From: Paenibacillus bovis
GTDB taxonomy: Bacteria > Bacillota > Bacilli > Bacillales > Bacillaceae_C
Reading direction: 5' to 3'
NCBI GenBank assembly: GCA_007679095.1
Contig: VEFU01000020.1
Span: 1-64,000 of the forward strand
Length of the DNA stretch: 64,000 nt
Position numbers and translations under genes: made by a program. The notes beneath the pieces were generated by a model. That model made no database searches and was not told where the DNA came from. It saw only the letters and a list, made by a program, of their open reading frames with translations. Position 1 is the first letter of the stretch. Each line of letters starts with the position of its first letter. Below, in pieces: positions 53,295 through 57,784 of this stretch.

Positions 53295-53358
53295 TCGAAT
53301 TCTTTAAGAATAGTGACCTTTTAATGAGAAATTAAGTTTTGCGGTAGTTATTCGTCAT

Positions 53359-54021
53359 GAATAAAGCCCTTGAGTGGGGAAAAAGGTTAAAGCAGGTACT
53401 ATTCACCTGGAATAAAGCCCTTGAGCAGAGAAAATCCTGAAAGAGGTACCTATTCGCTGTGAATAAAGCCCTTGAGTGGAGAAAGTCCTGAAAGAGGTAC
53501 CTATTCGCTGTGAATAGTGCCCTTGACTGGGAAAAATCCTGAAAGAGGTACCTATTCGCCTGGAATAAAGCCATTGAATGGGGAAAGTCCTGAAAGAGGT
53601 ACTTATTCGCAGTGAATAGTGCCCTTGAGCGGGGAAAATCCTGAAAGAGGTACCTATTCGCATTGAATAAAGCCCTTGACTGGGAAAAATCCTGAAAGAG
53701 GTACCTATTCGCCTGGAATAAAGCCCTTGACTGGGAAAAATCCTGAAAGAGGTACTTATTCGCAGTGAATAGTGCCCTTGAGCGGGGAAAATCCTGAAAG
53801 AGGTACCTATTCGCATTGAATAAAGCCCTTGAATGGGAAAAATCCTGAAAGAGGTAACTAATCGCAGTGAATAAAGCCCTTGAGCGGAGAAAGTCCTGAA
53901 AGAGGTACCTATTCGCATTGAATAAAGCCCTTGAATGGGAAAAATCCTAAAAGAGGTAACTATTCAATGAGAATAACGACCATAACTCGAGAAAATTCTT
54001 ATAGAGGTACTTATTCGTCGC
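53359..54021. repeat. Tandem array: 13 units of exactly 51 bp
   Basis: Units start at 53359, 53410, 53461 and every 51 bp to 53971, without a single indel; a partial unit precedes. The consensus opens GAATAAAGCCCTTGAGYGGG, continues RAAARTCCTGAAAGAGGTACC and ends TATTCGCNNT. Unit 13 is the most diverged. Each unit holds the palindrome AGGTACCT, and each junction forms TATTCGCNNTGAATA. Because 51 is a multiple of 3, minus-strand frames stay open as a 17-residue repeat, but several frames do so and none has a ribosome site, so I call no gene. The flanks 53295-53340 and 54022-54150 show no gene. Confidence 0.95.
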
Positions 54022-54162: not shown

Positions 54163-54630
54163 ATGCCTAAAGGGGAAGGAAAGTTAATTGCGCAAAATAA
54201 AAAAGCTTCTCATGACTTTTTTATTGAGGATACGTATGAAGCAGGAATTGTTCTTCAAGGAACTGAAATTAAATCTATTCGTGCTGGTAGAATTAACTTG
54301 AAAGATTCATTCGCCCGTATTCATCAAGGTGAGCTTTACTTGCACAATGCGCATATAAGTCCGTATGAACAAGGAAATCGTTACAACCATGATCCATTAA
54401 GAACACGTAAGCTATTATTACACCGCAAAGAAATTAATAAGTTAATTGGTGAATCTAAAGAACAAGGATATTCCATTGTTCCATTAAAAATGTATTTTAA
54501 AAATGGTTATGCGAAAGTGTTAATTGGACTTGGTAAAGGGAAGAAGAAATACGATAAGCGTGAAGACTTAAAACAAAAAGAAGCGAAACGTGATATTGAG
54601 AGAGCTTTCCGCGAACGCCAAAAATTGTAA
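54163..54630 (+). CDS. smpB: SsrA-binding protein SmpB
   Basis: Partner of tmRNA in trans-translation, 155 residues. It is an OB-fold with [18 protein letters not shown] and [21 protein letters not shown], and a basic C-terminal tail ([20 protein letters not shown], as a block) that enters the mRNA channel of stalled ribosomes. GGGGGGAG precedes ATG 54163. It sits directly before the tmRNA gene it serves and behind RNase R, which supports one functional module. Confidence 0.96.
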
Positions 54631-54642
54631 GCTCTCATACCC

Positions 54643-54670
54643 TTGATAAATAAGTCATAGATGTTATAAT
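54643..54670 (+). promoter_or_regulatory. ssrA promoter
   Basis: TTGATA (54643-54648), 16-bp spacer, TATAAT (54665-54670). Transcription should begin near 54677, giving a leader of about 80 nt that RNase P would remove. Confidence 0.82.
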
Positions 54671-54759
54671 AATAACTGTAACACCGAGTGTACAACTATT
54701 CCGAGTACCCGGAATACGATGAGTATATGCGATTAAATTCGCAACTTATCTTTTATCAT

Positions 54760-55402
54760 GGGGACGCTACGGATTCGACAGGGATAGTTCGAGCTCAGGT
54801 TGCGAGTCGAGGGGATCGTCCTCGTAAAAACGTCAAAGCCAATAATAACTGGCAAAGAAAACAACAACTTCGCTTTCGCTGCTTAATAACAGTTGATTGC
54901 GGTTCCTCCCTCCATCGCCCATGTGGTAGGGTAAGGGACTCACTCTAAGTGGGCTACGCCGGAAGTCCTCCGCCTGGGGACCATGGAAGAGAACAATCAG
55001 GCTAGCGCTCCGGATGCCCGTCGATAGGCGGAAAGAGACGCGAAATAATAATATATCGACTACACTCGTAGATGCTTGAGTGACGATATTTCTGGACGTG
55101 GGTTCGATTAGTAAGTAGTCGCCTTGTGTGGTAACACATAAGTGAAAACTCGGCTTTATCGGTGAAACCTACGTTGCACATAGATGCAATAAGGCGATGC
55201 CGAGCGGTATGTGGAGTAATCCAACAGCCGTGTATCGACTTATAGGCTGCCAATTAATTGGTAGTACTAGGATGTGAAAAACTACCTTATCAGGTAAATA
55301 TACTTTTCACATAATACGCCGAGGGACCTATTCAGAATAGGTTCAAGACATAGTCAGTGCCATGACGAAAGCATGGAATAGCACGTCCCACCGTCTCCAC
55401 CA
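54760..55402 (+). ncRNA. ssrA: tmRNA (ssrA) interrupted by a group I intron
   Basis: The 5' end GGGGACGCTACGGATTCGAC and the 3' end CGTCTCCACCA are canonical, with the acceptor stem GGGGACG/CGTCTCC and an encoded CCA. The tag frame is 54851-54886 and encodes GKENNNFAFAA, so stalled peptides would end in A-GKENNNFAFAA. The gene spans 643 bp, far over the ~360 nt of Bacillus tmRNAs. The T-arm is split: GTGGG plus TTCGAT at 55098-55108 and T plus CCCAC at 55386-55391. Removing 55109-55385 restores GTGGG-TTCGATT-CCCAC and a 366-nt RNA. Exons are 54760-55108 and 55386-55402. Confidence 0.95.
55109..55385 (+). other. Group I intron (IA-like) in the T-loop of ssrA
   Basis: A 277-nt insertion with no ORF. 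P1: exon CGAT (55105-55108) pairs with guide GTCG (55118-55121), with the diagnostic U-G pair at the splice site; the intron ends in G (55385). P2: CTTGTGTG-GTAA-CACATAAG. P3: CTCGGC (55149-55154) with GCCGAG (55318-55323). Q-like segment AATCC-AACAGCC (55219-55230). P7: GACTTAT (55237-55243, one bulge) with ATAGTC (55350-55355). Between P7 and P3' lie two hairpins, 55248-55265 and ATGTGAAAA/TTTTCACAT (55272-55312), like P7.1/P7.2 of subgroup IA. P8: ACCTAT/ATAGGT. P9: CCATG/CATGG. It is probably self-splicing, since all core helices are present. Confidence 0.88.
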
Positions 55403-55430
55403 AATACATATTTGGTGGTTTTTTATTTTT
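55397..55430 (+). terminator. ssrA terminator
   Basis: CCACCAAATA and TATTTGGTGG form the stem, followed by TTTTTTATTTTTTT. The left strand overlaps the tmRNA CCA end. Confidence 0.9.
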
Positions 55431-55723
55431 TTGTGACTTGAATCATAATTTTGCCGTTTTGGCAGCGTTATGCTTCAAAAAACTAACGGCAATTATATAC
55501 TTCAAAAAGTAATATTATGGCACAAAATTACTTTTACTAAAGGAGCGATATTGGTATTTGATTGAATTGTTAAATAAAAGTCAAGTACCAATCGAAGATG
55601 ACTACTTTATAAATTGAATATTAACAGTATCCAAGAACTGATTGTTCACGAACATCATTGTTGGGCAACATATGAGGGATTAAGCAGGCATGAATAAATT
55701 AATAATATTAATCGTCATGTAGA
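55431..55723. other. Intergenic stretch after ssrA
   Basis: About 290 A/T-rich bases with no supported gene. A short open frame (55614-55697) lacks a ribosome site. No integrase, no repeated tmRNA 3' end and no IS is visible. Confidence 0.6.
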
Positions 55724-55764
55724 AATATCCGATTATTTCTTTGTAAATAATCGGATATTTTTTG
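55724..55764. terminator. Hairpin at the 3' end of the transketolase gene
   Basis: AATATCCGATTATTT (55724-55738) and AAATAATCGGATATT (55744-55758) form a perfect 15-bp stem. The T-run is strong in the + direction and weak in the minus direction, so it may act bidirectionally. Confidence 0.8.
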
Positions 55765-55765
55765 T

Positions 55766-57784
55766 TTACTTCAATAGCGACTTTATTCTTGAAATTATAT
55801 TATCAACAGTAAATCCATACTCTTTGATAATTATAGATGAGGGTGCGGATGCACCAAAACGATTAATTCCCATTATCACCCCATGACGTCCAACGTATTG
55901 ATGCCAACCTTGTTGTGACCCCATTTCAATGGCTAGAGTAGTCTTTTCTAGTCTAGGAAGAATTACCGAATCCTTGTATGATTGCGTTTGTTGTTCGAAC
56001 AGTTCCCAGCTAGGCATACTAATCACACGTACAGGGATATCCTGTTCTTCAAGTTTTCTTTGTGCTTCCATGGCTAATTGTACCTCCGACCCAGTAGCAA
56101 TAATCTGTGCTCTAGGTGAGTTTTTCATTGCTTCAGATAAAATATATGCTCCACGATGAAAACCATAGGTACCAAATTTCAATGTTTCTTCCAATATAGG
56201 TAGCGATTGTCTTGATAAAATTAAAGCGGTTGGTCCTGAATTATTCTGAACTGCACACTTCCATGCGAGACTTGTTTCATTAGCATCTGCTGGTCTTAGC
56301 ACAGTGATGCCAGGAATACTGCGCAGTGAAGCTAATTGTTCTATTGGTTCGTGTGTTGGTCCATCTTCTCCTACTGCGATACTATCATGCGTAAATACGT
56401 AAATTATAGGTAGTTTCATTATGGCAGCTGAACGGATAGCTGGTCGAAGATAATCTGAAAATACAAAAAATGTCCCCACGAATGCTTTTAAGCCCTTATG
56501 CAACATCATGCCATTAGCTGCTGCTCCCATTGCAAATTCTCTTACACCAAAGGAAATGTTACGTTGTTTATAGTCATTACGTGTAAGTCTGCCTGAAGCC
56601 TTTATGGAAGTTTTTGTTGAAGTTTCCAGATCAGCTGACCCACCGATTAAAAACGGAATACTATTTGCTATTTTATTTAATGCGTTTTCTGATGCATCGC
56701 GTGTTGACAATGCATTTTCACTTGGTTTATAAAAAGGTAGTTCAACATCCCAATCTTCTGAAGTTGTTCCTTTCATAGCTGCAAGAAATTGCTCAGCTAA
56801 ATTAGGATGATCTTTTTGATATGCAGCAAACAAAAAGTTCCACGCACTTTCTTTAGCTTCTCCTTGCATTTTTAATTCCAAAAAATGTTCCTCTACATCC
56901 TTTGGAACGTAGAATGCTGGATTACTTGGCCACCCATAAAATTCTTTCGTTAGTAATGTTTCACTTTTACCAAGTGGAGTGCCATGGGAACCATGTGCCC
57001 CACCTTTACCACTTTTGTTTGGACTGCCATAACCAATGGTGGTCTTAATCTCAATCAAAGAAGGGCGTGGATCAGCCTGAGCCGTTGCGATAGCCCTATT
57101 AATTTCATCTAAATCATTTCCATCATTCACCAATTGGACATGCCAATTATAGCCTTCAAATCGTTTTTGTACATTTTCGGAGAAGGAATAGCTAAGATCT
57201 CCATCCAAGGAAATATCATTTGAATCATACAGTAAAATTAGCTTCCCAAGTTTTAGATGTCCAGCAAGTGAGGCAGCTTCACTAGTGATTCCTTCCATCA
57301 TATCCCCATCACCGCAAATTACGTAGGTATGGTGGTCTATAATATTGAATTCTTCACGATTATAAGTTGCAGCAAGATGAGCTTCCGCAAGTGCCATTCC
57401 AACAGCCATTCCTATTCCCTGTCCAAGGGGACCTGTAGTAGCATCCACACCCGGTGTATGCCCATATTCAGGATGACCTGGTGTCAAGCTTCCCCATTGT
57501 CGGAATTTTTTCAATTCCTTTAATGGCAGATATCCAAACAGATGCAATAAACTGTATAGTAACATTGATCCGTGGCCTGCTGATAAAACAAAACGATCAC
57601 GATTAACCCAATCAGGGTTGTTGGGATTATGGTTCATAAAATTGGACCAAAGCTCATAAGCCATAGGTGCTGCCCCCATTGGCATACCTGGGTGTCCTGA
57701 ATTAGCCTTGTCGATTGCATCAATAGAAAGTGTGCGAATAGTATTTACCGCTTTTTCTTTAAGTTGGTGATTCAATGTATTCAT
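55766..57784 (-). CDS. tkt: Transketolase
   Basis: Thiamine-diphosphate enzyme that moves two-carbon units between sugar phosphates in the pentose phosphate pathway; 672 residues, full length. The N-terminal [20 protein letters not shown], ThDP-binding [14 protein letters not shown]...YDSN, and [21 protein letters not shown] (block) are all intact. AGGGAGGAAT precedes the ATG on the minus strand. It is isolated from other pentose phosphate genes and divergent from a LysR regulator, so it is probably an additional, regulated transketolase beside a housekeeping copy elsewhere (inference). It could also serve a specialised sugar pathway. Confidence 0.93.

Follow-up and report, generated by a model that had tools for sequence, protein, structure and literature searches.

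A putative group I intron without an open reading frame splits the T-loop of the tmRNA gene of Paenibacillus bovis and is patchily distributed among its relatives

The window analyzed here, a stretch of 64,000 nucleotides from Paenibacillus bovis, carries the tmRNA gene ssrA on its forward strand at 54760-55402, a length of 643 nt (Table 1). Read directly from the sequence, the gene begins with GGGGACG and ends with CCA, and its T-arm is divided: GTGGG (55098-55102) and six loop nucleotides, TTCGAT (55103-55108), are separated from the seventh, T55386, and from CCCAC (55387-55391) by 277 nt (55109-55385) whose last base is G. The insert follows the sixth of the seven T-loop nucleotides, and its removal leaves an intact T-arm and a tmRNA of 366 nt; the gene length, insert, restored arm and product size given in an initial annotation of this DNA are all confirmed by this reading. 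The tag frame, read by eye, is GKENNNFAFAA, a tag that ARAGORN also reports in six of 10 intronless loci. The longest stop-to-stop frame inside the insert has 48 codons. The 3' exon is present as a single copy within the window, and the genome has one match above the cut-off of the Rfam tmRNA model, RF00023.

Table 1. Features of the ssrA locus and of the intron within it, in window coordinates
Feature	Position	Strand	Basis and remarks
smpB (protein partner of tmRNA), directly upstream of ssrA	54163..54630	+	Pfam SmpB, 219.8 bits
Promoter-like site TTGATA-16-TATAAT	54643..54670	+	agrees with the consensus at 11 of 12 positions; pattern scan only
5' exon of ssrA	54760..55108	+	tRNA-like 5' part, tag frame, pseudoknot region, 5' half of T-arm to U-1; sequence, RF00023 match
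P1	55105..55121	+	exon CGAU + intron UA (55105-55110) with UAGUCG (55116-55121); U55108 opposite G55118, U-G in 37/37
Putative group I intron, 277 nt, no ORF, terminal G	55109..55385	+	RF00028 match; covariation in 37 introns; ends kept in 37/37
P2 hairpin	55123..55142	+	100% paired; 6/8 pairs change on both sides
P3	5' strand 55149..55154, 3' strand 55318-55323	+	100% paired; double-sided change in 4/6 pairs
P4	55159-55163 with 55199-55203	+	99.5% paired; double-sided change in 2/5 pairs; P5 and P5a within 55159..55203
P6 and P6a	55205..55230	+	99-100% paired; one double-sided pair each
P7	5' strand 55237..55240, 3' strand 55352-55355	+	expected guanosine-binding site; complementary, invariant in 37/37
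P7.1 and P7.2/P7.2a hairpins (IA-type extension)	55247..55311	+	13/17 counted pairs double-sided; 86.8-99.5% paired per helix
P8 hairpin	55326..55342	+	93.2% paired; 4/6 pairs double-sided
P9 hairpin, CGAAAG tip	55360..55376	+	98.6% paired; one double-sided pair
3' exon of ssrA	55386..55402	+	loop nucleotide 7, CCCAC, acceptor strand, encoded CCA; sequence
Terminator-like hairpin overlapping the CCA end, T-rich tail	55397..55428	+	pattern scan only

The surroundings of the gene have some peculiarities of their own. Between the RNase R gene and smpB lies a tandem repeat of 51 bp in 12 copies (53349-53965); a pattern derived from its unit, allowing up to two mismatches, has 10 matches in the genome, all within this array, and a repetitive minus-strand ORF (53403-53918) overlaps it. 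Unlike in the window, smpB was not found by tblastn in the roughly 1.5-kb flank of the tmRNA gene in 12 of the 15 congeners fetched (L013, L015-L018, L050, L052-L057). Near the tmRNA gene of three intronless congeners there is an RNA resembling BsrG, a type I toxin-antitoxin RNA (L050:3356-3540, L053:673-921 and L054:2241-2497).

Relatives that lack the insert show what the uninterrupted gene looks like. ARAGORN finds a continuous tmRNA gene in all 10 intronless loci submitted to it, six of exactly 366 nt and the others of 363-369 nt, and the T-arm is intact in 110 of the 111 genes fetched from intronless relatives, the remaining one (G048, L149) being truncated by the end of its contig. The same program reports no tmRNA in the window, nor in any of nine intron-bearing loci.

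The Infernal searches with Rfam models suggested in the initial annotation gave a mixed answer. RF00023 matches 54768-55110 with 160 bits and stops at the insert, and its scores are 207-222 bits in nine intronless congeners and 159-171 bits in nine intron carriers. The group I model, RF00028, matches 55099-55376 over its full length (1-253) with E-values of 3e-8 in 371 bases and 8.8e-8 genome-wide, at a score of 37.6 bits that is below the gathering score of 50; that threshold is a search convention and no defining property of group I introns. RF00028 was not reported at the insert in a 3.5-kb scan with E-values up to 1, presumably because of search filters. At an E-value of 0.01 it reports only six of the 23 intron-bearing loci scanned, with 29.9-44.2 bits, and no tmRNA intron scanned reached 50; the general model is therefore insensitive to the tmRNA class of introns, and it is the homologues that decide. 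For genome annotation this matters in practice, since ARAGORN loses the gene in carriers and the introns scanned stay below the Rfam group I cut-off, and the reported absence of ssrA from such genomes is therefore not credible. The same genome contains a second group I intron, which interrupts a flagellin gene near its 3' end (G000:C522:58101-58462; L009:1501-1862) and scores 95.2 bits with RF00028 as against 37.6 for the tmRNA intron, as well as a third, weak match (18.7 bits, E 0.039). Among solved structures, the enolase encoded by this genome is most similar to PDB entry 4a3r, a Bacillus subtilis structure.

The initial annotation had also proposed looking for the same insertion in related genomes, and this proved productive. 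A whole-gene search matched all 149 sampled genomes of the order (the T-arm of G142 lies outside the count), and in 37 of them, the window's included, the match runs through the insert. Carriers make up seven of the 16 sampled genomes of the window's genus and belong to 24 genera, 16 of which also contain intronless species in the sample. Of 398 genomes sampled across the class, 11 contain an exact 19-base sequence from the P7 side: five are among the 37, one more (G503) belongs to the same order, and G186, G209, G223, G161 and G226 belong to other orders. In all six of the genomes outside the 37 (loci L237, L242-L246) the Rfam tmRNA match spans 338-350 bases, near the window's 343; the 5' splice site could also be read in four of these, and RF00028 is reported next to the tmRNA match in L245 and L246.

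Not every apparent occurrence held up. A phylum-wide pattern found eight of 398 genomes, three with known tmRNA introns of the order and five judged by their letters to be chance matches. Two seemingly split tmRNA genes (G093 and G127) lie on contigs that end within the gene and share about 77 bases, and were taken as assembly breaks. A scan of named genomes for T-loop introns with other exon stems gave 18 pattern matches, one of which (L207) is an ordinary tmRNA and was dropped; the other 17 (L191-L206, L208) are from Pseudomonadota, mostly labelled Gammaproteobacteria, and include Parahaliea mediterranea and P. maris.

To describe the fold, we aligned the 37 introns of the order, that is, the window's and 36 homologues, and hand-drew a 78-pair canonical structure for the window sequence. 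All 78 are standard pairs in the window, and across the 37 introns the structure is formed in 97.2% of cells. Double-sided changes occur at 37 of the 78 pairs and in 235 cells, against a shuffled mean of 61 with none of 500 shuffles as high, and slid structures, used as a control, are only 33-42% paired. The strand also folds far better than its shuffles (z -4.85). The introns are 263-290 nt long, and every one of them follows U-1, ends in G and keeps a G opposite U-1. The core helices P3, P4, P6 and P8 stand in the right order, with 93-100% of cells paired per helix and double-sided changes in each, while the strands of P7 are invariant and hence outside the reach of covariation; when P3 is taken by itself, the count of further pair types, one of five measures, does not exceed that in shuffles. 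Without a given structure, RNAalifold recovers P1, P2, P3, P4, P6, P7.1, P7.2 and P8 and draws the region of the 3' strand of P7 and P9 differently; the program cannot represent the P3/P7 pseudoknot. Thermodynamic folding gives P4 a probability of only about 0.1, and P7 is outside what such folding can represent.

On its sequence and covarying structure, the insert is best described as a group I intron, and the hairpins P7.1 and P7.2 between P7 and P3 place it with the IA type, the subgroup that such hairpins mark. Extra elements of this kind serve to classify introns (PMC3984707). The claim that an ORF-less group I intron of IA type splits the tmRNA T-loop has accordingly stood up, with ends exact to the base and intronless relatives in agreement. 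One further helix drawn by RNAalifold, of seven pairs between exon GGACGUG and CACG-UCC at the 3' splice site (columns 1-7 with 324-330), has one pair that is G-C in 28 introns and G-U in nine, the others being invariant, and a probability of 0.14 in the window. It was rejected because the 17 pseudomonadotal introns, which have other exon stems, show no covariation there: the third-last intron base, read by eye, is C in all 17, opposite an exon C in 15 and an exon G in two.

How the intron came to be distributed as it is can be approached by comparing it with its hosts. Carriers do not cluster on an RNase R tree built from 30 family genomes, the other four of the 34 (G023, G026, G029 and G031) being intronless and left out: the 10 carriers need 10 changes, the maximum possible, compared with a shuffled mean of 8.6-8.7, and 500 of 500 shuffles are as low. 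Well-supported branches alone force at least seven changes, and G019 and G024, whose RNase R is nearly identical, differ in intron state. Intron similarity nevertheless respects genus boundaries: wherever a genus has at least two carriers, the closest intron comes from that genus (20 of 20 cases; permutation mean 1.6, largest value 8 in 5000). Inheritance with repeated exact loss accounts for this combination better than movement from genus to genus does. Intron distances agree with RNase R distances within the window's genus (r 0.66; 31 of 5040 permutations as high) and, moderately, over all 37 introns (r 0.36, 3 of 2000; with tree distances r 0.30, 14 of 2000). Exons of the tmRNA gene follow RNase R with r 0.58, and intron tree distances show no agreement with exon distances (r 0.08, 539 of 2000). 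In a careful intron tree, four of seven tested host groups are clades, whereas three fail to form one, namely the genus, the family and a second family; these three groupings were not rejected (p 0.24-0.41), and neither was a deliberately wrong one (p 0.15), so that the test has too little power here. Some groups in the intron tree unite families that are separated in the RNase R tree, and some transfer between families is therefore likely.

The vacant sites bear on the same question. Loop nucleotide 6 is U in all 37 carriers and in 28 of 110 intronless genes, and in 26 intronless genes the U-1 site stands in an otherwise identical T-arm. Intronless genes with this U are found in 18 of 30 genomes of carrier genera as against 10 of 80 elsewhere; counted by genus, the figures are 9 of 16 and 9 of 53 (p 0.003), a comparison that allows for kinship only at the genus level. 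We read these patterns as vertical descent with frequent exact loss, which leaves the U as a scar, plus some older transfer, and loss is probably, though far from certainly, the main cause of the patchy distribution.

The most serious alternative is repeated gain, in which intron DNA, or RNA by way of reverse splicing, would re-enter vacant U-1 sites, mostly from near relatives. We regard this as possible but unlikely. It would account readily for the maximal number of changes on the RNase R tree, it has vacant sites with fitting T-arms at its disposal, and intron groups that span families are what it would produce. However, an intron of 263-290 nt leaves no room for a homing endonuclease gene, no intron was found in the phages and plasmids searched or, by the exact 19-base pattern, in viral contigs, and the restriction of nearest introns to the same genus speaks against it. 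The excess of U in carrier genera is what a scar of loss would leave behind, although gain with a preference for U sites predicts the same.

We are highly confident of the overall reading, in which the insert acts as a group I ribozyme and would splice itself out of the precursor of tmRNA. It lacks an endonuclease gene, and within genera it appears to descend with its hosts and to be lost precisely and often. By analogy with established group I chemistry, two splicing steps would take place at 55108/55386. The T-loop exon bases CGAU would pair with the internal guide of the intron to form P1; a guanosine or GTP docked in P7 would attack the chain behind U-1 of P1; and the 5' exon thus released would in turn attack behind the terminal G, joining loop nucleotides 6 and 7. 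The product would be a tmRNA of 366 nt whose T-arm is whole. The T-stem halves GUGGG and CCCAC are predicted to pair already in the precursor, with probabilities of 0.83-0.85 for four of the five pairs and 0.43 for the fifth, and may keep both splice sites together. Because no other gene in the genome exceeds the tmRNA cut-off, trans-translation should depend on splicing.

This dependence invites speculation about regulation. Splicing consumes free guanosine or GTP, and the intron might therefore tie the amount of mature tmRNA to the pool of guanosine nucleotides. Ribosome rescue would then track nutritional state, and lineages would keep or lose the intron according to whether this coupling benefits them. 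We consider this idea a long shot; if true, it would explain both the long survival of the intron without an endonuclease and its frequent loss. Less probable again is a regulated switch, as conceived in the initial annotation, in which a second GCCGAG at 55199-55204 competes for the P3 5' strand and, in certain conditions, keeps the intron from splicing. A six-base complement is indeed present in the window, but it consists of the 3' strand of P4 (55199-55203) plus one base, and that strand is already engaged in P4. The alternative pairing is formed in 85.6% of cells over the 37 introns with no double-sided change, it is mismatched in 18, 12 and 2 of the 37 at three of its six pairs, and its modelled probability in the window is 0, compared with 0.98-0.99 for P3. 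The proposed switch is not supported by these data.

We also find it scarcely credible that nucleases cut out the insert as an intervening sequence and that the tmRNA persists as two base-paired pieces, the arrangement known from permuted tmRNA genes. Two-piece tmRNAs do exist (PMC11915505), and T-stem pairing could hold both halves, but what covaries is a group I ribozyme fold whose splice sites are fixed, and the T-loop would be left with an internal nick. An origin of the insert as what is left of an integrated element that used ssrA as its attachment site can be dismissed: ssrA is often an integration site (PMC11915505), but there is no second copy of the ssrA 3' end in the window, a search of 54700-57000 found no direct repeats of at least 15 at the insert ends, and a compact insert of similar form is present in 37 genomes.

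Our analysis adds a further genome to those in which this known kind of intron is found. The rapid turnover of the intron within one genus, together with the existence of intronless sister species, provides natural pairs for examining the costs and benefits, to the host, of a ribozyme in an important RNA gene that lacks a homing endonuclease gene (HEG), and for learning how such introns are lost precisely. A genus-level study of presence, absence and descent bearing on tmRNA intron loss was not among the literature matches listed, which is weak evidence given that subscription journals lie mostly outside the coverage.

Comparison with described systems places the intron in familiar company. 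One is the tmRNA intron of Clostridium botulinum, a precedent named in the initial annotation and borne out by PMC2729099. That intron has 287 nt and is described there as previously shown to self-splice; the construct had a 5' exon of 338 nt and a 3' exon of 24 nt and was crystallized with the P1 substrate 5'-CGAdT-3'. The two are alike in being group I introns in tmRNA with the same four exon bases (CGAU/CGAdT), and differ in host. Group I introns are also known from flagellin genes of thermophilic Bacillus (PMC3984707), which represent the same type of intron in Bacillus-type bacteria in a different gene. The pseudomonadotal T-loop introns, taken by eye for group I, share the loop site, U-1 and the terminal G with the window intron and, within limits fixed by the search pattern, span 282-299 bases counted from GGACG through CCACCA; they differ in the exon stem, which is GCGGG or GGGGG where the window has GTGGG, and in the sequence of the intron itself, and RF00028 was not reported in the three of 17 that were scanned.

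The broadest frame is a 2025 survey by Nawrocki, Petrov and Williams (PMC11915505), which lists 883 unique intron-form tmRNA genes, all interrupted in the TpsiC-loop. Most of these introns are at loop position 7, which by the numbering in the legend should be the site between loop nucleotides 6 and 7, as here. They are found in 21 phyla, predominantly Bacillota; 36 of the 883 contain an HEG, and the founding set averages 293 nt. The survey's own covariance model, tmRNA_intron, is absent from Rfam. With this many genes on record, and with carriers so frequent among the sampled genomes of the order, the occurrence in a Bacillaceae background is not unusual. TpsiC-loop insertion, the -1 U with its internal G, the terminal G and the usual absence of an HEG are common to the survey's set and the window intron, and there is no difference in kind between them. 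By that account T-loop tmRNA introns are as a kind already known, and what the present analysis adds is the local evolution of one of them within a genus.
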